Of a DNA stretch of 64,000 bases, positions 13,774 through 24,412 are shown piece after piece. The stretch's first letter is position 1. Each line of letters begins with the position of its first letter. The notes beneath the pieces are model-generated. The model was not told the DNA's origin, ran no database searches, and saw only the letters and a program-made list of their open reading frames with translations. The stretch comes from Kiloniellaceae bacterium (GTDB lineage Bacteria > Pseudomonadota > Alphaproteobacteria > Kiloniellales > Kiloniellaceae). The stretch covers positions 1 to 64,000 of the forward strand of contig WHTV01000011.1 of assembly GCA_009377535.1 (NCBI GenBank). The letters run 5' to 3'. The position numbers were made by a program, and so were the translations under genes.

Positions 13774-14904
13774 ATGCAGTTCGACCGTCGCAGTCTGTTG
13801 AAGTATTCCGCCGCCGCCGGCGTCCTGGGGCTCGCCGGTCCCTTCGCCGGCAGCGCCTGGGCGGCACGCGAGAGGGAAATGAACATCCTCTGCTGGGAGG
13901 GCTACAACTCGGCTGACGTGCTCGACCCCTTCCGCAACGCCGAGAACGCCACCATCAAGGCGGAGTCGCTGACAAACGACCCGACCATGATCAACCGCCT
14001 GCGCGCCGGCGAGACCAACGTCTGGGACCTGATCAACGTCAACAATCCCTGGGCGCGCAAGGTCATGCACCCGGAGGGGCTGATCACGCCGCTCGACCGG
14101 GCCAGGTTCGAGCCCTACTTCGAGACCATGCTGCCGGGCTTCGAGCCGCCTTACAAATGGGCCATGAGCGAAGACGAAAAGGACCTGCTTGGCATTGCGC
14201 AGCGCTTCGGGCCCTACAGCTTCGTCGTCAACACCGACAAAATCAGTCGCGCGACCGCCGAGGACCAGGGCTGGGATCTGTGGAACGATCCAGCCAACGC
14301 CGGCAAGTACGGCGTGCTTGAATCGGACGACTGGAACGTCTTCGACATCTTCCTGATCGCCGGCATCGACCCCTTCCGCGAGCACAGCGACGAGGAGTTC
14401 GCCAAGTTCGACGAGGCCGCGAAGACGGTTTTCAAGGGCGCCAAGGTGGTGGGCGACATCGCCACCATGAACCAGGCGCTGGTGTCCGGCGAGATCGACT
14501 TCCACCTGACGGGCGGCATCTATTCGGCCTCGCCTGCGCGCTTCGACGGCTACCCGAACATCCGCGGCGTGACGCCGATGAAGAGCGCCATCCCCGGCAA
14601 GGGCGGCGTGGCCTGGATCGAGATCACCTCGACGGTCAATAACCCGCAGCTCTCGCCGCTCGCAGCGGAGTTCCTGGAATACGTGCAGGATCCCGAGGTT
14701 GCGCACACCGTCGCCTTCGCCGAGGGAACCTTCAACCCGGTGACCCAGATGGGCAATCCCAAGTGCTTCGAGCTCTTCACCAAGGAGGAGCTTGATGCGA
14801 TCCAGTGGGACAGCCTGGAGGAAGAGATGGCGCGTTCGGCGGAATACGATATCGTACCGGACTATGACCGCGCGCTCGACCTGATGACCGCCGCCAAGCG
14901 CTAG
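13774..14904 (+). CDS. Extracellular substrate-binding protein, spermidine/putrescine type
   Basis: A 376-residue periplasmic binding protein. The N-terminus MQFDRRSLLKYSAAAGVLGL is a twin-arginine-like signal (DRRSLLK), with cleavage near AWA-AR. The mature protein has the PotD/PotF pattern: NILCWEGYNSADVLDPF, then FGPYSFVVNTDKI and KSAIPGKGGVAWIEI. It delivers a polyamine or related amine to the permease pair encoded downstream. The gene starts right after the palindrome and is followed by a strong hairpin that would limit readthrough into the transporter genes, giving more binding protein than pump. Confidence 0.9.
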   Translation: MQFDRRSLLKYSAAAGVLGLAGPFAGSAWAAREREMNILCWEGYNSADVLDPFRNAENATIKAESLTNDPTMINRLRAGETNVWDLINVNNPWARKVMHPEGLITPLDRARFEPYFETMLPGFEPPYKWAMSEDEKDLLGIAQRFGPYSFVVNTDKISRATAEDQGWDLWNDPANAGKYGVLESDDWNVFDIFLIAGIDPFREHSDEEFAKFDEAAKTVFKGAKVVGDIATMNQALVSGEIDFHLTGGIYSASPARFDGYPNIRGVTPMKSAIPGKGGVAWIEITSTVNNPQLSPLAAEFLEYVQDPEVAHTVAFAEGTFNPVTQMGNPKCFELFTKEELDAIQWDSLEEEMARSAEYDIVPDYDRALDLMTAAKR

Positions 14905-14932
14905 GCGTAGGTTTAGCGTAAGACCAGCGATC

Positions 14933-14975
14933 GGCCGCGGCCCGACGCCCCGGGCTGCGGCCCCCGCTCGTTTTT
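14933..14975 (+). terminator. Intra-operon terminator/attenuator after the binding-protein gene
   Basis: GGCCGCGGCCCG (14933-14944) pairs with CGGGCTGCGGCC (14951-14962) with one mismatch, and TTTTT follows at 14971-14975. It lies between the binding-protein gene and the ATPase gene, a place where partial termination is common in ABC-importer operons. Confidence 0.6.
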
Positions 14976-15008
14976 GAACTGGGCCCGTCCCTGAAAGAGT
15001 AGCGTTCC

Positions 15009-16064
15009 GTGGCCGAACCCATCCTCCGACTCTCCGGGCTGACCAAGCACTTCGGCGGCTTTACGGCGGTCAAGCAGATCGACCTCGACATCGAAGAAGG
15101 CGAGTTCTTCACCATCGTCGGCCCGTCCGGATCCGGCAAGTCGACCCTGGTGCGCATGCTGGCCGGCCTCGAGGAGCCGAGCGGCGGCGAGATCCTGCTG
15201 CGCGGCGAACGCATCAACGAAACGCCCGCCAACCGGCGGCCGACCTGCATGGTGTTCCAGTCCCTCGCCCTGTTCCCGCACCGCACCGTCGGCCAGAACA
15301 TCGAGTTCCCGCTCAAGATGCGCGGCGTGGCGCGCAAGGCGCGGCGGGCGCGGGCCATGGGGCTGCTGCGCTTGCTGCAGCTGCCGGAGTCCTATTACGG
15401 CAAGAGCGTCACCCAATGCTCAGGCGGCGAGCGCCAGCGCATCGCGCTGGCCCGCGCGCTGGCCTTCGACCCGGAGATCCTGTTCTTCGACGAGCCGCTG
15501 TCCGCCATCGACTACAAGCTGCGCAAGACGCTCGAGAAGGAGCTGAAGGACATCCATAAGGAGACCGGCAAGACCTTCATGTACATCACCCACAGCCTGG
15601 AAGAGGCCATGGTGATGTCGGACCGCATCGGCGTCATGCGCGACGGCAAACTGGTCCAGATCGGCACGCCGGAAGAGATCTATACCCGGCCGCGCGACAA
15701 GTTCGTCTCGGAGTTCATGGGCGAGGTGAACCTGCTGAAGGTGAAGCGCAACGGCGCCGGCCTGCACTGCCCCTCGCTCGACGCCACCTTCACCGGTCCG
15801 GCATCCAAAGGTTTCGATAGCGGATACCTGGTGATCCGGCCGGAATACCTGCGCTTCCTCAAGCCTGGAGAGAGCGCCGAGAACCAGGTCGAGGGCGTCC
15901 TCTACAACGAGTACGCCCTGGGCAGCCGCATCCAGTACCAGGTCCGCGTCGGCGAACAGGTCTTCCTGGTCGAGAAGCTGCGCGAGCAGCGCTACCACGG
16001 CCGGCTCGACGACCGGGTGACCATCGGCTGGGAGGCACGCGACAGCATGCTGGCGCCGGAATGA
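15009..16064 (+). CDS. ABC importer ATP-binding protein, polyamine (PotA) type
   Basis: A 351-residue ATPase. It has Walker A GPSGSGKST near residue 38, Q-loop VFQSLALFPH, signature CSGGERQRIALARAL (C replacing the usual L), Walker B ILFFDEPLSAID and the H-loop in YITHSLEEA. A C-terminal TOBE-like domain (residues about 240-351) matches PotA and other MOI-type ATPases. The start codon is GTG at 15009 with a weak ribosome-binding site. It powers the importer formed by the two permeases at 16255 and 17169. Confidence 0.92.
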   Translation: MAEPILRLSGLTKHFGGFTAVKQIDLDIEEGEFFTIVGPSGSGKSTLVRMLAGLEEPSGGEILLRGERINETPANRRPTCMVFQSLALFPHRTVGQNIEFPLKMRGVARKARRARAMGLLRLLQLPESYYGKSVTQCSGGERQRIALARALAFDPEILFFDEPLSAIDYKLRKTLEKELKDIHKETGKTFMYITHSLEEAMVMSDRIGVMRDGKLVQIGTPEEIYTRPRDKFVSEFMGEVNLLKVKRNGAGLHCPSLDATFTGPASKGFDSGYLVIRPEYLRFLKPGESAENQVEGVLYNEYALGSRIQYQVRVGEQVFLVEKLREQRYHGRLDDRVTIGWEARDSMLAPE

Positions 16065-16121
16065 GAAGCTCAAGAACTTTTCCCTCGCCCCCTGCGGGCA
16101 ACCTATCCCGCCTTCCTCAAT

Positions 16122-16224
16122 TGTCACCCTCGCACTTGATGCGAGGGTCCATGGTTGGGCTTGGCGTCTGGCCCCGCAATGGATCCCGGATCGCGCTCGC
16201 TCGCGCTCGCTTGTCCGGGATGAC
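16122..16224. repeat. Two-hairpin intergenic repeat, copy 1
   Basis: Two inverted hairpins stand back to back. One is built on CCCTCGCACTTGATGCGAGGG and ends in TCCATGG. The other pairs ATCCCGGA with TCCGGGAT around an alternating gcgctcgctcgc tract. The layout GTCA-stem-TCCATG ... ATGGATC-stem-TGAC is shared with copies at 27328, 28850 and 33708. The element sits between the ATPase and first permease genes, within the operon, so it is transcribed and could act on mRNA stability. Confidence 0.6.
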
Positions 16225-16254
16225 GGCGTTGGGAACGGGCGAGAGGGCTGAAAG

Positions 16255-17169
16255 GTGAGCACCCTCAGCGAAGCCGTGGCGGAGACCTCGGTGCGGCCGG
16301 CCCGCCGGATGCCGCGGCGGCGGCTTTTCAGTCCGGGCCTGCTGGCCGCCTTGCCGGTACTGGCGCTGCTCGCCATCGGCTTCCTGGCGCCGCTGATTGC
16401 CGTGACCGCCTTCAGCTTCGCCGAGCCGCGCAGCTTCACCGTCTTCGGCGCGCCGACCCTGGAGAACTATCGGACCATCTTCAGTCCCGCGAATACGGTC
16501 TATCTCTCTTTCGTCTGGTCGCTGGTTTTCGCCGCGCTGGCGGTCGTCCTGCTGGCTCTGCTGTGCTATCCGGTCGCCTATGGGCTGGCCCACATCTTCG
16601 GCCGCTGGGCCAATCTCATCACCCTGCTGCTGGTCTTCCCGCTGTTCATCTCCGAGAACATCCGCCTGTTCGGCTGGGTGTTGTTCTTCATCAAGAACGG
16701 CGTGCTCGACGGCACCTTGAAGAGCCTCTTCGGCCTGGAGCTGCAGTCCATACTGTTCACGCCGCCGGTCATCGTCTTCGGCATGGTCTACGTCTACCTG
16801 CCCTTCATGCTGTTCCCTATGGTGCTCGGCCTGTCCATGGTGCCACGCGAGGTGGTGGAGGCGGCCGGCGACCTGGGCGCCTCGCGCCTGCAGACCTTCC
16901 GCGAGGTCGAGCTGCCGCTCGCCATGCCGGGCTTCATCATCGGCGGGCTCCTGACCTTTGTGCTGGCGGTCGGCGCCGTCGCGGAATCCAAGGTGCTGGG
17001 CGGCCAGTCGGTGATCGTCATCACCCACGACATCGAAATCGCCTTCACCTACGCCCAGAACTGGCCGCTCGGGGCTGCGCTCTCGGTGCTGCTGACGGCG
17101 GTGGTCGGCACGCTGGTGCTGCTGGTGCTGCGCTACCTCGACCTCGACCGCATCCTGGGGCGGCGCTGA
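16255..17169 (+). CDS. ABC importer permease 1, polyamine (PotB) type
   Basis: A 304-residue inner-membrane permease with a GTG start. About six membrane spans are predicted, beginning with LLAALPVLALLAIGFLAPLIAVTAF. The EAA loop that contacts the ATPase is VVEAAGDLGASRLQTFREVELPLAMPG. It pairs with the next permease, whose ATG overlaps its stop as TGATG. The family is the binding-protein-dependent permease of spermidine/putrescine type. Confidence 0.9.
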   Translation: MSTLSEAVAETSVRPARRMPRRRLFSPGLLAALPVLALLAIGFLAPLIAVTAFSFAEPRSFTVFGAPTLENYRTIFSPANTVYLSFVWSLVFAALAVVLLALLCYPVAYGLAHIFGRWANLITLLLVFPLFISENIRLFGWVLFFIKNGVLDGTLKSLFGLELQSILFTPPVIVFGMVYVYLPFMLFPMVLGLSMVPREVVEAAGDLGASRLQTFREVELPLAMPGFIIGGLLTFVLAVGAVAESKVLGGQSVIVITHDIEIAFTYAQNWPLGAALSVLLTAVVGTLVLLVLRYLDLDRILGRR

Positions 17170-17984
17170 TGGGCGGGCCCGGAAAATCGCGCGGCCCCGG
17201 CAGGATGGGGGGCTGGATCGGGGCCTGGACCCTGCTGGTTATCGTCTTCCTCTACCTGCCGGTCGCCTGCGGCGTGCTCGCCTCGCTGTCGCAGTCGCGC
17301 TACTTCGGCTTTCCCATTACCCAGTGGTCGACGCGCTGGTGGCAGCGCACGGTGGATTCGATCGAGATAGGGATTCTGATCCAGACCTCGGTCCTGATCG
17401 CCCTCATGGTAACGGCGGTCTCGGTGGTGCTGGCCTTCATGGGCGCGCTAGCCTTCGCCCGCTATGACTGGCGCGGCCGCAAGATCTTCCAGCGCATCGT
17501 GCTGCTGCCGATCTTCTTTCCCCAGGCAGTGCTCGGCCTGGCCTTGCTGTTGTGGTTCAACACCCTGGGGCTGCCGCTCTCGTGGAAGACCGCGGTCTTC
17601 GCCCACCTGGTCTGGATCGTGCCGATCGCCACCCTGATCATCTCGATCCAGGTCTACAGCTTCGATGCGGCGCTCGAGGAGGCGGCGCTCGACCTGGGCG
17701 CGACGCGCTGGCAGGTGCTGCGCGAGGTGACCCTGCCCGTGCTCGGGCCCGGCATCTTTTCGGGCGCGCTCTTTGCCTTCCTGCTGTCGTGGGGCAACTT
17801 CCCGCTGTCGCTTTACACCACCGGCGCCGATTCGACGGTGCCCGAGTATCTCTACGCCAAGATGGTGGCGGGCTACACGCCGGGAGTTCCGACGCTGGGG
17901 GCTTTGACGACCGGCGGCGCCGCCGTCATTCTGGTGGTCGGTTACGTGTCCTGGATCTTCATGCGGCGCGCGCAAGGGAGGTAG
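17169..17984 (+). CDS. ABC importer permease 2, polyamine (PotC) type
   Basis: A 271-residue inner-membrane permease starting inside the TGATG junction with permease 1. It has a short cytoplasmic Gly-rich lead, a first span TLLVIVFLYLPVACGVLASL, several further spans and the EAA loop ALEEAALDLGATRWQVLREVTLPVLGPG. The oxygenase gene begins only four bases after its stop, so transport and substrate conversion are on one transcript. Confidence 0.9.
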   Translation: MGGPGKSRGPGRMGGWIGAWTLLVIVFLYLPVACGVLASLSQSRYFGFPITQWSTRWWQRTVDSIEIGILIQTSVLIALMVTAVSVVLAFMGALAFARYDWRGRKIFQRIVLLPIFFPQAVLGLALLLWFNTLGLPLSWKTAVFAHLVWIVPIATLIISIQVYSFDAALEEAALDLGATRWQVLREVTLPVLGPGIFSGALFAFLLSWGNFPLSLYTTGADSTVPEYLYAKMVAGYTPGVPTLGALTTGGAAVILVVGYVSWIFMRRAQGR

Positions 17985-17987
17985 CCA

Positions 17988-19019
17988 ATGTCCGGTGCCG
18001 TCGAGTTGGAGGAGAGCCTGCGCGGCGCGCGGCTGGCGCTGGAGGAGATCCCGGTGATCGACTTCGCGCCCTTCCTGACCGGCGACCTCGCCGCGAGGCG
18101 GGAGGTCGCCGGGAAGATCGGCGCGGCCTGCCGCCACATCGGCTTCTTCTACCTCGCAAACCACGGCATCTCCGACGCGCTGGTCGCCCGCAGCTTCGCC
18201 GAAGCCAAGCGCTTCTTCGACCTGCCGATGGAAAAGAAGCTGGAGATCGACATCGAGAAGTCGCCTTGCCACCGCGGCTACTTCAGGGTCGGCGGCGAGA
18301 ACCTCGACCCGGCCAGGCAGAAGGCCGGCGGCGACCTCAAGGAAGGCATCAAGATCGGCCGCGACCTCGCCGCCCACCACCCGCTCGTCACAGCGGGCAC
18401 GCCGCTGCACGGCCCCAACCTCTGGCCGCGGGACCTGCCGGGCTGGCAGGGCGCCATGCAGTCCTACTTCGATGCCCTGGTCGGGCTCGGCAAGCAGATC
18501 ATGCATGCCTTCGCCCTGTCGCTCGACCTCGACGAGTGCCATTTCGACCGCCAGCTCACCGACCCCATGGCGACACTCGGCCCGCTGCACTACCCGCCGC
18601 AGCGCGGCAGCGTCACCGAGAAGCAGATCGGCGCCGGCGCCCATACAGACTTCGGTTGTCTGACCATCCTGGCGCAGGACATGAACGGCGGCCTGCAGGT
18701 GAAGAACGCCGCCGGCAGCTGGATCGATGCGACGCCGATCTCCGGCAGCTTCGTCATCAACATCGGCGACATGATGGCGCGCTGGACCAACAACCTCTTC
18801 GCCTCGACACAGCACCGGGTGATCAATGTCTCCGGCGCCGAGCGCTATTCCCTCCCCTTCTTCTTCGATCCGAACTTCCACGCCGAGGTCACGGCGCTGA
18901 AGACCTGCGTCGATGCCGACCACCCGCCGGTTTTCCCGCCGACCACCAGCGGCCAGCACCTGCTGGACATGATCGACGCGACCTTCGACTATCACAGGGA
19001 AAAGAAGGGCAAGCCTTGA
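17988..19019 (+). CDS. 2-oxoglutarate/Fe(II)-dependent oxygenase (isopenicillin N synthase-like)
   Basis: A 343-residue soluble dioxygenase of the IPNS-like family. The N-terminal DIOX_N domain starts with IPVIDFAPFLTGD and holds GFFYLANHGI. The jelly-roll core carries the iron ligands His219 and Asp221 in GAHTDFGCLTIL and His276 in STQHRVINV. The 2OG-binding Arg286/Ser288 pair is in RYSLPFFF. It is embedded in the amine-importer operon, so hydroxylation or oxidative dealkylation of the imported amine is a reasonable inference. Its stop overlaps the next start (TTGA). Confidence 0.9.
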   Translation: MSGAVELEESLRGARLALEEIPVIDFAPFLTGDLAARREVAGKIGAACRHIGFFYLANHGISDALVARSFAEAKRFFDLPMEKKLEIDIEKSPCHRGYFRVGGENLDPARQKAGGDLKEGIKIGRDLAAHHPLVTAGTPLHGPNLWPRDLPGWQGAMQSYFDALVGLGKQIMHAFALSLDLDECHFDRQLTDPMATLGPLHYPPQRGSVTEKQIGAGAHTDFGCLTILAQDMNGGLQVKNAAGSWIDATPISGSFVINIGDMMARWTNNLFASTQHRVINVSGAERYSLPFFFDPNFHAEVTALKTCVDADHPPVFPPTTSGQHLLDMIDATFDYHREKKGKP

Positions 19020-19654
19020 CCGGGAACTACGATTTCAGCCTCACCGCCGGGCACGCCGCCCTGCTGGTCGTCGACCTGCAGCGGGGCTTCTGCGATCCTC
19101 AGGTGAGCGAGGCTCTGGGCTTCGACAGCAGCCCTCATTTCCGGCAGCGGGTCGATGATCTGGTGCTGCCCAACGCCTGCCGCCTGATCGCCGCGGCGCG
19201 CAGCGCCGGGGTCGAGGTGATCTACACGGTGATCGAAGCGCTGACGGCCGACGGCCGCGACCGCAGCCTCGACCACAAACGCTCGCACTTCCTCATTCCC
19301 AAGGGCTCGGCCGGCGGCGAAGTGATGCCCGAGATCGCGCCGGCGGGCGACGAGATGGTGCTGGCGAAGACCGCCTCGGGCATCTTCAACGCCACCAACA
19401 TCGACTACCTCCTGCGCAACCTGGGCATCGAGCGGCTGGCGATCCTGGGTGTCTACAGCCACCAGTGCGTGGAGTCCGCCGTGCGCGACGCCGCCGACCG
19501 CGGCTATCTCGTGACCCTGGTGTCTGACGCCTGCGCGGCGAAGACGGCGGCGCAGGAAGCCGCCACCGCCGAGGGCATGAGGGCCTACGCCCGCGTCACC
19601 GCGACCGAGGATCTGCTGAAGGAACTGCATGCCCGGGGAGTCTCGGCCGCATGA
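19016..19654 (+). CDS. Cysteine hydrolase, isochorismatase family
   Basis: A 212-residue alpha/beta hydrolase with the Asp-Lys-Cys triad: Asp in LLVVDLQRGF, Lys in LAKTASGIFNATNI and Cys in GVYSHQCVESAVRDA. Relatives cleave amides such as nicotinamide, N-carbamoylsarcosine or ureidoacrylate. I start it at the TTG at 19016, which overlaps the oxygenase stop as TTGA; no ATG or GTG fits before the first conserved strand. An amidase role in release of an amine or ammonia would suit this operon. Confidence 0.85.
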   Translation: MTGNYDFSLTAGHAALLVVDLQRGFCDPQVSEALGFDSSPHFRQRVDDLVLPNACRLIAAARSAGVEVIYTVIEALTADGRDRSLDHKRSHFLIPKGSAGGEVMPEIAPAGDEMVLAKTASGIFNATNIDYLLRNLGIERLAILGVYSHQCVESAVRDAADRGYLVTLVSDACAAKTAAQEAATAEGMRAYARVTATEDLLKELHARGVSAA

Positions 19655-20391
19655 GGCGCCCGCTCGTCGGCGTCACCGCCGACCTCCGCACCTACAACAA
19701 CTCCCTCATGCACACGGTCGGCGACAAATACGCCCGAGCAGTCTGGGAGGCGGCCGGTTGCACGCCGATGATCATCCCGGCGATGGCAGAAAGTCAGGAG
19801 GTGATGGACCTGCTGGACTCCCTCGACGGCCTGCTGTTCACCGGCAGCCCCTCCAACGTGCACCCGACGCGCTACGGCCGCGACCCGCACGAGAGCGCCG
19901 AGCCCTACGACGAGGCGCGCGACGCGGTGACCTTCCCGCTGATCGACGCGGCGCTGGAAAAGGGCCTGCCGAGCCTCTTCATCTGCCGCGGCTTCCAGGA
20001 GCTGAACGCCGCCCTCGGCGGCACCCTGCACGCTCGGCTGCACGAGGTGGAAGGCCGCCTCGATCACCGCATGCCGCGGGACGACGACATGGACCTGCGC
20101 TACGGCCTGCGCCATTCCATGCGCTTCATCCCCGGCGGCATCTTCGCAGAGATCGCCGGCGCCACGGAGATCCAGGTGAACTCCCTGCACGGCCAGGGGA
20201 TCGACGAAGCGGCGCCGGGCATCGAGATCGAAGGCCGCGCCCCCGACGGCACGCCGGAGGCCGTCTCCGTGAAAGGCGCCAAGCGCCTTGCTGTCGGCGT
20301 CCAGTGGCACCCGGAGTACAAGCCGCTGCAGAACGACTTCTCCACCCGCCTCTTCCGCGCCTTCTCCGAGGCCGTGCACGGGAAGAATTGA
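19651..20391 (+). CDS. Gamma-glutamyl-gamma-aminobutyrate hydrolase-like (PuuD) class I glutamine amidotransferase
   Basis: A 246-residue hydrolase. The nucleophile Cys112 lies in FICRGFQELNAALGG and the His/Glu pair in VQWHPEYKPL (His220, Glu222). NSLHGQGID is a further PuuD-type block. PuuD removes gamma-glutamyl groups at the end of the gamma-glutamylated putrescine pathway, so with the two glutamine-synthetase-family ligases it closes a ligation/hydrolysis cycle. The ATG overlaps the previous stop as ATGA. It is the last gene of the importer operon. Confidence 0.9.
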   Translation: MRRPLVGVTADLRTYNNSLMHTVGDKYARAVWEAAGCTPMIIPAMAESQEVMDLLDSLDGLLFTGSPSNVHPTRYGRDPHESAEPYDEARDAVTFPLIDAALEKGLPSLFICRGFQELNAALGGTLHARLHEVEGRLDHRMPRDDDMDLRYGLRHSMRFIPGGIFAEIAGATEIQVNSLHGQGIDEAAPGIEIEGRAPDGTPEAVSVKGAKRLAVGVQWHPEYKPLQNDFSTRLFRAFSEAVHGKN

Positions 20392-20413
20392 GGCCTTCCC
20401 CCGCGAAAGCGCT

Positions 20414-20438
20414 TGAAACCGAGACGCGAATTTGCGAC
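20414..20438 (+). promoter_or_regulatory. Conserved upstream element of the first S41 gene
   Basis: The 25-base element begins TGAAACC and ends GAATTTGCGAC. The same element with four mismatches lies at 22154-22178 before the second S41 gene. Both are 33-40 bases ahead of the ribosome-binding region. CTTGAAA resembles a sigma-32 or ECF minus-35. The class of promoter is a guess; the duplication itself is direct. Confidence 0.45.
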
Positions 20439-20477: not shown

Positions 20478-22061
20478 ATGCGGAGATTCTGGGCTTGGGC
20501 GCTCTGCGCGCCTCTCCTCGTGGGGCTTGGGGGCTGTGCAGGCCCGCGCCCCAACCTGCACGAGCCGACCGAGACGGAAGTAGCGGCCAACCTGCGCACC
20601 GCCTTCGACTATCTCTACGACAACTACTACGAAGAGATCCGGCTGGAGAACGTCGTCATCCCCGGCCTGGAGAATCTCCGCGTCCTGGAGCCCGACCTCA
20701 GTGTGGCTCTCGCGAGAATTTCGAAAATCGAGGCCTATGTGGAGGTGCGGCTGCGGGACGAACTGATCTACCGCGTCCGGGATGCTGCGTGGTATGCGGG
20801 AGACGGCTGGTCCGCCATCGTGCGGAGCACGATCAAGGCGCTGCGGACGGCGTCGCCCAGAATGGCCGACGCCACCTGGGTCGAGACCACGGACCTCGTT
20901 CTCGCAGGTGTTGCCAAAGCTCTGGACAGCAACGCCGTCTACCTTTCCCGCTCGGAAATGAAGGCCGTTGGATTGGTCGTCGATGACGAATCCGCAAAAG
21001 ACGACGGCATCAAGAAACCCCGTGAGCAAAAGGCCGCAGCCGGCATCCGGCTGCGCTACCTGGATCGCACGACCAGGATAGCGCAGGTCCGGCGCAATTC
21101 GGCCGCGGCACAGGCCGGGCTTCGCCCCGGAGACACCGTCGAGACCCTTGAAGGCCAACCGGCGGACACCTACTCCCGCCTGCAGATGAACATGCAGTTC
21201 GTCGGAACGCCGGACAGCGAAATGACCCTGACCGTCCGCAGAGCCGACGGCACCGAACACCGGACCGTCGTTTTGCGGCGCGAGACCGTCGATGATGACT
21301 CACCGGTTGCAATGTGGCGCAACGGCATTCTCTATTTGCAGGTCACCGATCTCTGGGGCGAGACGGTTGATTACGTCAAGAAGCTGCTGCAGGCGGAACG
21401 GGAAAAGGCCGCTGAGGGCGTGTCCGGGATCGTCATCCACCTGCGCGGCACCGCCGTGGCCAGCCCCTTCGCCGCTGCACGCTTCCTGGACGTCTTCTAT
21501 GAGGGCGACGAACGCTATTTCAGTACCATTGGTCAGTCGTATCTCGGGAACTACACCTTCCGGCCCCGCGAGAGGCCGGAGGACACAGCAATCCGCCTGG
21601 TTGTCCTGGCGAACGGCGAGACGGCGGCGGCCGCTGAAGGCATGGTGCTGGCGCTTCAGGATCTGGGACGTGCCGTCGTCGTCGGCAGCGCCACCAGCGG
21701 CCAGGGCTATCTGCAGACCGGTTCATTTCTGTTGAACGGAGGCCTTATCGCCTTTCCCTACGCCCGCCTCGTTACGCCTGCGAATTTTGCGATCGAAAAG
21801 CGTGGCGTACTGCCCACGGTTTGCAGTGGCGCCCTGAATGAGGGCCAAGCCGCCGTCGTGCAGTTGAAGAGTGGCCAAGGGATCATCAATCAGGCGACCA
21901 GGAACCGCAAAATCGCCACAGGCAACAATGCCGCCATCCGGGCACACCGCGATTTCTGCCCGCCACGCATCGACCAGGACGACCGCGACCTTGAGCTGGC
22001 CGAAGCGATCCTCGCGGACCCGACTCTCTACGATCAGATCCTTGCTGCGGGAACGAACTGA
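20478..22061 (+). CDS. S41-like PDZ lipoprotein, probable pseudo-peptidase, copy 1
   Basis: A 527-residue exported lipoprotein-like protein; the signal peptide ends in the lipobox LGGC. An N-terminal helical region is followed by a PDZ domain (VRRNSAAAQAGLRPGDTVETLEG, about residues 200-250) and a C-terminal-processing-protease fold. In the active-site loop ANGETAAAAEGMVLALQD the position of the catalytic Ser is Ala384. The Lys 25 residues later is Gln409 in SATSGQG. Both catalytic residues appear lost, so it is probably a scaffold or regulator rather than a protease. GGGGAGG precedes the ATG. A paralogue follows directly. Confidence 0.8.
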   Translation: MRRFWAWALCAPLLVGLGGCAGPRPNLHEPTETEVAANLRTAFDYLYDNYYEEIRLENVVIPGLENLRVLEPDLSVALARISKIEAYVEVRLRDELIYRVRDAAWYAGDGWSAIVRSTIKALRTASPRMADATWVETTDLVLAGVAKALDSNAVYLSRSEMKAVGLVVDDESAKDDGIKKPREQKAAAGIRLRYLDRTTRIAQVRRNSAAAQAGLRPGDTVETLEGQPADTYSRLQMNMQFVGTPDSEMTLTVRRADGTEHRTVVLRRETVDDDSPVAMWRNGILYLQVTDLWGETVDYVKKLLQAEREKAAEGVSGIVIHLRGTAVASPFAAARFLDVFYEGDERYFSTIGQSYLGNYTFRPRERPEDTAIRLVVLANGETAAAAEGMVLALQDLGRAVVVGSATSGQGYLQTGSFLLNGGLIAFPYARLVTPANFAIEKRGVLPTVCSGALNEGQAAVVQLKSGQGIINQATRNRKIATGNNAAIRAHRDFCPPRIDQDDRDLELAEAILADPTLYDQILAAGTN

Positions 22062-22153
22062 GCCTGCAGGTCAGGCAACAGCAATCGCCAGGGCCGTGCG
22101 CGGCACGGACCAGGCTGCATCGCAAAACCCTCCCCGAAGGGTTGCATTCGCCC

Positions 22154-22178
22154 TGAAACCTTTACGGGAATTTGCGAC
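22154..22178 (+). promoter_or_regulatory. Conserved upstream element of the second S41 gene
   Basis: TGAAACC then GAATTTGCGAC at the same relative positions as in the element at 20414-20438. It lies 33 bases upstream of the GTG start at 22212. Conservation before both paralogues suggests that each has its own promoter under the same control. Confidence 0.45.
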
Positions 22179-22211
22179 CTCTTAGAAAGCGGCGGAAGCA
22201 GGGAGACAAAT

Positions 22212-23741
22212 GTGCAGGCGCTCGTAACGCAGGGGCTTTCGTCTCTGGTGGTCATCGCAATGCTCACAGGCTGCGCAGGCAGCGACGGTCTGGACGGCTC
22301 CCTGTCAATGGGCCAAGCCCAGCGAACCATCGAAACCGCACTTGAGGATATCGAAGACATCTACTACCGGGAGACCAAGGCCTCGGAGCTCGTCGATGCC
22401 GGCGTGGGAGGGATTCACAAGCGCTATCCCGCGGTCGCGTTCAGCCGGCAGGGCGAGGCGATCGTTGTTACCGTCGAGGGAAACCCTGTCTACGATCTCG
22501 CAATCCAAAACGACAAGGGAGCGTCGGACAAGTGGGCCGAACAGTTGGCGCTGATGCTGGTGCAGATCGCGGCGACGCTGAATGGCGACGATAAGCCCGA
22601 CCTCGCGGATTTGACCGACAGCTTCCTGGATGGCACCGCCGACAGCCTCGACACGTTTACCGGTTACAAGTCGCCGCGCGAAGCCAGGGCCGAACGCCAG
22701 AGGTCCGACGGCAAACCGGGCACCCTCGGCATCCGCGTGAAGCCCGAAGCCAGCGGTCTACGGATCGTGCAGATCTACGATGCGGACGCGCTTGGATCGG
22801 GTCTGTTGCGCCGGGGGGACTTAGTCGTCGAGATCGACGGGGTTCCTACGACCGGCATAACCGAGGGTACCTTTCATGACCTCATCCGTGGCGCAGTTGG
22901 CAGCCCCGTCGTCCTCAAAATCCTGCGTTCCGATGACGAGGCGCCGGTTACCGTGACCTTGCAGCGTGAAAAGGATGATGCCAATGCCGTCGCAGTCTTC
23001 CGGGAAGGCAATATCCAGCGGATTGTGGCGGTGCGATTTCATGAGCGTATGGCGAACGATTTGCGGGACCTGCTGTACGACCTGAAGAACGAGCCACAAC
23101 CGGCCAAGGGAGTCATCTTCGATCTGCGGAACAATCCCGGGGGCCTTCTCCATTCCGTCGTCTCTACCGCCGACTTCTTTCTGAGCAAGGAGCGCATCTT
23201 CACGACCCGCGGCCGCCATAAGGACAGCCACCAGAATTTCATAGCCTCGTCGACGCCGCAGGCAATCGACCAGCCTCTGGTAGTGCTCGTCGACCAGGAC
23301 TCCGCCGCCGGCAGTGAGATCGTGGCGGCAGCCTTGCAAGACAACGGGCGAGCCGTCGTGGTCGGCACGGCCACTTTCGGCAGAGGCACGATTCAGACGG
23401 CTCTGCCCATGCCGAACCACGGCGTATTCGGCCTCACCTGGGCGCAGATGCACAGCCCGGCCGGCTACCGTCTCGATAAGCGCGGCGTAATGCCTACTGT
23501 CTGCACTGGCGGCAGCGTGACGGCGGGGGAGGTTGTCGGCGCCCTGCGCAGCGGTGGCGGCGTCATCGCCCGCGGCATCCGCACCCGGGACGTCGACCTG
23601 GAAGACGCCGCCGCGGTCGAGGCCTTCCGCGCGCTCTGCCCACCACGCGAGGACGGGGCCGATGATGTCGCGCTGGAGGTCACCAAGGCAATCCTGGCGG
23701 ACCCGGCGCTTTACAACCGAGTCTTGGCGGCCGCACCGTAG
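22212..23741 (+). CDS. S41-like PDZ lipoprotein, probable pseudo-peptidase, copy 2
   Basis: A 509-residue exported protein with GTG start; the lipobox is MLTGC. The PDZ domain spans about residues 175-255 (GLLRRGDLVVEIDGVPTTG). The protease fold follows with VIFDLRNNPGG, the substrate-loop block typical of S41. In LVDQDSAAGSEIVAAALQD the catalytic Ser position is Ala366, although a Ser stands two residues earlier. The Lys 25 residues on is Arg391 in ATFGRGTIQ. It is closer to active CtpA than copy 1 but still lacks the Ser/Lys pair. The C-termini of both copies share CPPR and ILADP-LY motifs, confirming common origin. Confidence 0.82.
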   Translation: MQALVTQGLSSLVVIAMLTGCAGSDGLDGSLSMGQAQRTIETALEDIEDIYYRETKASELVDAGVGGIHKRYPAVAFSRQGEAIVVTVEGNPVYDLAIQNDKGASDKWAEQLALMLVQIAATLNGDDKPDLADLTDSFLDGTADSLDTFTGYKSPREARAERQRSDGKPGTLGIRVKPEASGLRIVQIYDADALGSGLLRRGDLVVEIDGVPTTGITEGTFHDLIRGAVGSPVVLKILRSDDEAPVTVTLQREKDDANAVAVFREGNIQRIVAVRFHERMANDLRDLLYDLKNEPQPAKGVIFDLRNNPGGLLHSVVSTADFFLSKERIFTTRGRHKDSHQNFIASSTPQAIDQPLVVLVDQDSAAGSEIVAAALQDNGRAVVVGTATFGRGTIQTALPMPNHGVFGLTWAQMHSPAGYRLDKRGVMPTVCTGGSVTAGEVVGALRSGGGVIARGIRTRDVDLEDAAAVEAFRALCPPREDGADDVALEVTKAILADPALYNRVLAAAP

Positions 23742-23745
23742 CGCC

Positions 23746-24330
23746 TCAGCCCCCCGTCCCGCCCTTGATGACGCCGCAGGCGATGCGGTCGCCGGCATCG
23801 CCGGCCGGGTCGCTGCGGTAGTCGTCGGCGCCGGCGTGGACCACGATGGCGGCGCCGTCATCGTCGAGCAGTTCGTCGGACAGCGTCAGCTGCGCGTTGA
23901 AGACCTCGAGCGTCACCTCGCCGGAGCTGGGCACGTGGAAATTGGGCATGTCGCCTGCGTGCATGCCTTCCGGCACCTCCAGGCCATGCTTGGCACCGGT
24001 CGGATTGAAATGGCCGCCGGCGGAGGTGAACGGCGGCTCGCAGCTGCCGGTCTCATGCACGTGGAAGGCATGGACTCCTTCCGGCAGATTCTCCAGGCTA
24101 ACGATGAGCAGCGTCCCGTGTGGCGTTTCCGTCAGCTCCACCGTGCCCACGGGCTCGCCCTCGGCATCCACCATGGCCGCACTCGCGCTGTCCTCCGGGG
24201 CGGCCGAGGCCGCGGAGGCCAGGGCCAGGCCGGTCACAGCCAGGATCGCGCTCAGCAGGCCGGCCAGCGCCGCCTGCGATCGGAGATCGCGCGCTTCAGC
24301 GCGGGTGGAAACGGTTCGAAAAATTGACAT
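23746..24330 (-). CDS. sodC: Periplasmic Cu/Zn superoxide dismutase
   Basis: A 194-residue exported enzyme that dismutates superoxide. The metal ligands are in FHVHETGSC, GGHFNPTGAKHG and VVHAGADDYRSDP. The disulfide cysteines (GSCEPP and IACGV) are present. The long N-terminus (about 55 residues) holds a hydrophobic export segment AALAGLLSAILAVTGLALASAASA. GGAGG before the ATG at 24330 sets the start. It converges on the second S41 gene with only four bases between the stops. Confidence 0.93.
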   Translation of the reverse strand: MSIFRTVSTRAEARDLRSQAALAGLLSAILAVTGLALASAASAAPEDSASAAMVDAEGEPVGTVELTETPHGTLLIVSLENLPEGVHAFHVHETGSCEPPFTSAGGHFNPTGAKHGLEVPEGMHAGDMPNFHVPSSGEVTLEVFNAQLTLSDELLDDDGAAIVVHAGADDYRSDPAGDAGDRIACGVIKGGTGG

Positions 24331-24412
24331 ATTGCCTCCTGGCAGGGGGGTTATCAGGATGAACGCGGGCAGCACACGCGGGTTCCGTCGGCCCCGCCCC
24401 GGTGCAAGGCGC

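Follow-up and report, generated by a model that had tools for sequence, protein, structure and literature searches.

Active C-terminal processing (CTP) peptidases of family S41A carry a Ser-Lys dyad, which in Pseudomonas aeruginosa CtpA consists of the nucleophile S302 and the lysine K327; replacement of either residue alone (S302A or K327A) abolishes CtpA activity in vivo, according to the accessible part of PMC11021448. The C-terminal region of CtpA builds a hexamer or higher oligomer (PMC8764530, accessible part), and CtpA(S302A) of P. aeruginosa, unlike active CtpA, was found together with substrates (PMC6050968, accessible part). Several protease families are already known to include pseudoproteases, and vertebrates have S41-like non-peptidases. 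Dead paralogues can also act on a living relative: MamO of Magnetospirillum promotes MamE-dependent proteolysis, and CspC of C. difficile activates CspB (accessible parts of PMC4794232 and PMC4619724, respectively). A literature search, with most subscription papers outside its reach, found no description of a bacterial S41 pseudoprotease lineage.

The window analyzed here, a stretch of 64,000 nucleotides, comes from a marine bacterium of the genus Pelagibius and holds two adjoining protease lookalikes (c1 and c2) that appear to be dead, with the same box upstream of each and an intact cousin elsewhere in the genome. Judged by their sequences, both are pseudo-peptidases.

The tandem genes and their products

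The features of the locus are as follows.

13774..20391, + strand: conserved cluster ahead of c1 (solute-binding protein, ABC ATPase, two permeases, 2OG-Fe(II) oxygenase, isochorismatase, PuuD-type Peptidase_C26)
20413..20437, + strand: box TTGAAACC-N7-GAATTTGCGA before c1, 40 bp ahead of the c1 start
20478..22061, + strand: copy 1 (c1), 527-aa lipoprotein, PDZ and S41, A384/Q409 at the dyad
21813..22049, + strand: c1 C-terminal module, approximate limits (Cys449 ... Cys494 ... AILADPTLY)
22153..22177, + strand: second box, in the c1-c2 gap, 34 bp ahead of the c2 start, one mismatch (first base)
22212..23741, + strand: copy 2 (c2), 509-aa lipoprotein, PDZ and S41, A366/R391 at the dyad
23499..23726, + strand: c2 C-terminal module, approximate limits (Cys431 ... 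Cys476 ... AILADPALY)

The two proteins are 32% identical over nearly their full length, and c2 starts with GTG. Both reading frames run where an earlier note on this DNA had placed them, and its reading of a signal, a PDZ domain and an S41 fold in each copy is borne out by a lipobox cysteine (C20 and C21 in the two copies), by Pfam Peptidase_S41 matches (PF03572; 64.4 bits for c1 and 136.4 for c2, cut-off 24) and by PDZ_2 matches ahead of the protease core (33.5 and 31.5 bits, cut-off 27). Both fall below the cut-off of 218.6 bits for NCBIfam TIGR00225 (prc), at 85.5 (c1) and 198 bits (c2). The lipobox cysteine together with a C-terminal module bearing two cysteines, both present in c1 and c2, places them in the long S41 lipoprotein family of the order. 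The products would be exported and lipid-anchored. The residue after the lipobox cysteine is Ala, so that under the general Lol rule both proteins are probably located in the outer membrane. A Cu/Zn superoxide dismutase gene (window 23749-24345, - strand) converges with c2 across a gap of a few bases.

Loss of the catalytic dyad

When aligned without gaps to P. aeruginosa CtpA, c1 has A384/Q409 and c2 has A366/R391 at S302/K327, and a MAFFT alignment with relatives yields the identical two columns. Both copies thus lack the Ser-Lys pair of active S41A peptidases with its spacing kept, as the earlier note had claimed. The c1 loop has also lost the N-P-G-G motif (LRGTAVAS), whereas c2 retains LRNNPGG. 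Among columns that are near-invariant in the intact long family, c2 keeps 43/53 in the S41 part and c1 only 24/53; for the PDZ part the counts are 11/21 (c1) and 10/21 (c2). A pattern of complementary decay, in which c1 would keep the PDZ domain and c2 the S41 domain, was considered and rejected, as its S41 half holds (24 vs 43 of 53) and its PDZ half fails (11 vs 10 of 21). By a simple draw, the chance that both dyad positions fall among the 10 losses of c2 is about 0.03 and among the 29 of c1 about 0.30, so the c1 loss taken alone is not selective.

Predicted structures

Superposition of predicted structures on CtpA, a check that the earlier note had proposed, gave a CTP fold for both copies. 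The AlphaFold models (mean pLDDT 78.8 for c1 and 82.3 for c2, from shallow six-row alignments) have a helix starting exactly at A384 or A366, the site of the former nucleophile, and place the second dyad position in the loop preceding the next strand. The best structural matches of both are CTP proteases: for c1, Helicobacter pylori CtpA (Z 25.8, rmsd 4.7 over 345 residues), tied with P. aeruginosa CtpA 8sxe (Z 25.4, rmsd 5.0 over 352, the alignment reaching CtpA residue 434), and for c2, P. aeruginosa CtpA 8sxg (Z 20.3, rmsd 9.1 over 340, a high value that may reflect shifted domains in the model). Chains of the vertebrate protein IRBP (7jti, 4lur, 1j7x) also match both models, with Z 13.3-17.9.

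S41 proteins of the genome, genus and order

The window's genome (G000) has four S41 genes, namely c1, c2, a CtpA gene on contig C273 and the gene for a long S41 lipoprotein on contig C266. The latter two retain Ser and Lys, so that the copies that look dead coexist with intact relatives. A survey of 61 genomes of the order, eight of them Pelagibius (G000 and G001-G007), found the S/K pair in 60/60 long S41 members outside the degenerate set, which argues that the dyad loss in c1 and c2 is not chance, and in all 10 CtpA-type proteins read; this count leaves out the contig-end fragment L053 and the S41 places G033:C77 and G039:C344. In this survey of residues in relatives, also proposed beforehand, nine long S41 proteins of the order are degenerate, eight of them within 6/8 Pelagibius genomes. 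Their dyad residues are A/Q (c1), A/R (c2), A/S and G/S (G007), S/S (G001), N/T (G003), Q/Q (G005), G/S (G004) and G/H (G023, of another family), that is, eight distinct pairs, with G/S occurring twice. The lipobox cysteine is present in 9/9 degenerate and 59/60 intact long proteins.

The intact long lipoprotein is single-copy in nearly all genomes of the order. In a sample of the class, the long type was detected at E <= 1e-75 in 93/385 genomes and in more than one copy only in the window's genome, with at most three candidates scored per genome, a scope in which strongly diverged copies would be missed. A genome scan for related loci returned four, all from Pelagibius or a near MAG. Some absences may be gaps, as several of the related genomes are drafts or were assembled from metagenomes.

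Two degenerate lineages lie elsewhere. One, with Gly/Ser at the dyad, occurs in G004 (contig C2) and G007 (contig C15), at about 8537-10165 of L056 and at L058:8771-10432; in G004 an MFS transporter gene adjoins it and two tandem genes for OmpA-family lipoproteins stand within a few kb. The other, with Gly/His, belongs to another family of the order and lies between DUF1538 and DUF533 genes (L061:2648-4363).

A variable slot in Pelagibius

c1 and c2 occupy a slot between the ABC/PuuD cluster and genes for fumarylacetoacetase and homogentisate dioxygenase. The slot is filled in 5/8 Pelagibius genomes, always co-directionally with puuD: G000 has both copies, G003 and G005 the copy-1 type, and G007 and G001 the copy-2 type. 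In G002, G004 and G006 the cluster is present with other genes in the slot, and a search of these three slots for a decayed remnant found none up to E 5, bar one 39-residue match at E 2.9. The slot of G004 contains an ORF of 219 aa (L092:7055-7714, - strand) with a sub-threshold match to Pesticin (phage-lysozyme-like, E 0.0068). While G004 has its degenerate S41 gene at another locus, G002 and G006 have none. With a slot gene missing from 3/8 genomes, Pelagibius can evidently do without the function.

The proteins of the four other filled slots are 32-46% identical to those of G000. The corresponding values are 73-85% for puuD, oxygenase, ATPase, fumarylacetoacetase and homogentisate dioxygenase, and 60-77% for the permeases, solute-binding protein and isochorismatase.

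Origin and constraint

A branch of the tree (97/98; 95/98 in a second tree) has the nine degenerate proteins all to one side, but they are long-branched; as long branches meet there, the tree does not establish a single origin. Support is good for both the copy-1 clade (c1, G003, G005) and the copy-2 clade (c2, G007, G001), but not for their sisterhood (46/24). The copy-2 orthologue of G001 keeps Ser and has Ser in place of Lys, so that by parsimony the two clades probably lost Ser separately; one older loss of Lys, common to both clades, is possible from the residues seen. The earlier proposal of two independent losses therefore probably stands for Ser, and is weakened for Lys by that possible single older event and by the grouping of all nine proteins.

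Constraint was gauged from dN/dS (Nei-Gojobori), which is below 0.5 in 5/5 degenerate pairs. The off-slot pair of G004 and G007 gives 0.22 at an unsaturated dS of 0.25, where the intact paralogue in these two genomes gives 0.10, and the four slot pairs give 0.28-0.49 at dS 1.2-1.8, near saturation. With intact frames, dN/dS of 0.22-0.49 and S/K paralogues elsewhere in the genome, the idea that these are pseudo-peptidases kept side by side holds up.

The best-kept part is the C-terminal module, whose identity is 48% within the copy-1 clade, 63% within the copy-2 clade and 42% from one clade to the other, and 28% between the copy-1 clade and intact paralogues. Its two cysteines (Cys431 and Cys476 in c2) are found in 9/9 degenerate and 60/60 intact proteins. 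The N-terminal and PDZ parts reach 28-39%. The PDZ domain is among the poorly kept parts (36-39% within clades, 6-13 of the 21 invariant columns retained), and the suggestion that the proteins work through the PDZ domain is not supported in that form; they may still be regulators of an active protease.

A conserved box upstream of each slot gene

New in this analysis is the box TTGAAACC-N7-GAATTTGCGA, which precedes 6/6 slot genes by 33-43 bp in an otherwise poorly alignable gap, with single mismatches near its ends in c2 and G005. The 64-kb window has two sites against 0.02 expected. When the 15-base core was searched in the window's genome at <=2 mismatches, two sites were recovered, both exact and before c1 and c2 only, with nothing to indicate a wider regulon; the reversed control pattern gave one match. 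Among the matches listed, at least 54/58 genomes match the box at <=2 mismatches, in numbers often little above the control. With a looser pattern, the box was absent from the gene-less slots of G002, G004 and G006 (0/3), and none was found near the two off-slot degenerate Pelagibius genes or the G023 gene.

The box is probably a promoter-like or regulator site. Its layout (TGAAAC, 15 bases, CGA) resembles the consensus shape of an ECF-type promoter, and its CTTGAAA that of a heat-shock type -35; a sigma-70 scan found no site. The presence of one box per gene suggests control separate from the upstream cluster.

The segment GAATTTGCG of the box also occurs upstream of the intact paralogue in 3/8 Pelagibius genomes, with GAATTTGTG in three more and GAAATTGCG in two. 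The conserved stretch ahead of that paralogue (L062 and its Pelagibius orthologues) is GAATTTG(C/T)GCTTTGCG, which has GAATTTGCG in common with the box in those three genomes. This is a lead only, as it was spotted post hoc and lacks the box's left half at the same spacing.

Possible roles

On this evidence, c1 and c2 may well be S41 pseudoproteases dedicated to a non-catalytic role, pairing with active S41 proteases or holding their substrates. They would have arisen by duplication of the long S41 lipoprotein protease, which has been kept intact and mostly single-copy in the order, and would fold like CTP proteases without the ability to cut, while keeping a C-terminal module that matches the oligomerization region of CtpA. 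Each gene would be driven from its own box as a putative promoter. The products could then enter mixed oligomers with a candidate partner, the intact long lipoprotein of contig C266, or could bind the substrates of that protein uncleaved; c2, which keeps most of the S41 core, would in the latter case resemble the S302A form of CtpA. Several points count against this explanation: a slot gene is missing from 3/8 Pelagibius genomes, the fast divergence of the slot proteins could mean weak constraint, c1, having lost 29/53 invariant S41 columns, need not bind peptides at all, and no genetic link was found that would tie the slot to the intact paralogue, which lies on another contig. A more specific version, that Pelagibius has private, fast-changing S41 pseudoproteases with their own promoter boxes that join intact S41 oligomers through the C-terminal module and thereby alter substrate choice, is offered tentatively and is somewhat doubtful as a whole. 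If true, it would mean that a bacterial S41 protease is controlled through dead subunits.

Alternatively, the S41 fold could have been repurposed to bind some small ligand, such as a peptide or lipid, at the envelope, serving the importer/PuuD cluster in the manner of IRBP/RBP3. Such a role would suit the position of the genes directly behind the ABC-oxygenase-isochorismatase-PuuD cluster, in the same orientation in 5/5 genomes with a slot gene, and the absence of any terminator-like site found on the + strand from puuD to c2; RBP3, for its part, is without the protease residues and serves as a carrier of retinoids and fatty acids (PMC11750400, accessible part), and the IRBP matches of both models agree with it. 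However, the separate box of each gene suggests control apart from the cluster, 3/8 Pelagibius genomes have the cluster without a slot gene, and no such cluster adjoins the degenerate genes of G004 C2 and G007 C15. We consider this role unlikely.

That the copies are decaying duplicates, which have become inactive and, serving no function at present, are on their way to being lost, is similarly improbable. Fast divergence, patchy presence and variable residues at both catalytic positions are what such decay would produce, but every copy has a long open frame, the lipobox cysteine is universal among the nine, dN/dS stays low in all five pairs, and the C-terminal module and the box are conserved. 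Still-active enzymes with relocated catalytic residues (e.g., Ser364 or Ser368 of c2) are highly improbable and were rejected: c2 does retain LRNNPGG along with most of the invariant S41 columns, and its G001 orthologue has Ser, but there is no gap between the dyad positions, Ser364 opens the SxS motif and is two residues off, no Lys lies nearby, the sole Lys of c2 between K326 and K423 is K337 within a loop poorly modelled by pLDDT, the c1 loop (TAAAAE) has no Ser, and the orthologues share no common substitute at either position.

Comparison with known systems

The reading of c1 and c2 as non-catalytic partners of S41 proteases can be set beside four described or neighboring systems. P. aeruginosa CtpA, an S41A protease with the adaptor LbcA, is alike in fold, PDZ domain and C-terminal region; it differs in having Ser302/Lys327 and in reaching the outer membrane via LbcA (PMC8764530 and PMC11021448, accessible parts), whereas c1 and c2 lack the dyad and have a lipobox of their own. 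The C266 lipoprotein shares the lipobox, a similar length, the two-Cys C-terminal module and 35% identity with c2, but keeps SASASE and the Lys and evolves more slowly. Vertebrate IRBP/RBP3 has an S41-like fold from which the protease residues have been lost (PMC11750400, accessible part); it is a multi-module carrier of retinoids and fatty acids and not a bacterial PDZ lipoprotein. MamO and CspC are dead paralogues kept with an active relative, a coexistence that c1 and c2 appear to share, but they belong to the HtrA and subtilisin families rather than S41, and MamO is also metal-binding.

The system is small, a named isolate has it (P. marinus NBU2595), and its genes are removable. In the CTP proteases considered, as far as the accessible parts of the sources describe them, activation is by the non-homologous adaptors LbcA and NlpI; a dead homologous subunit would add a further route of control.
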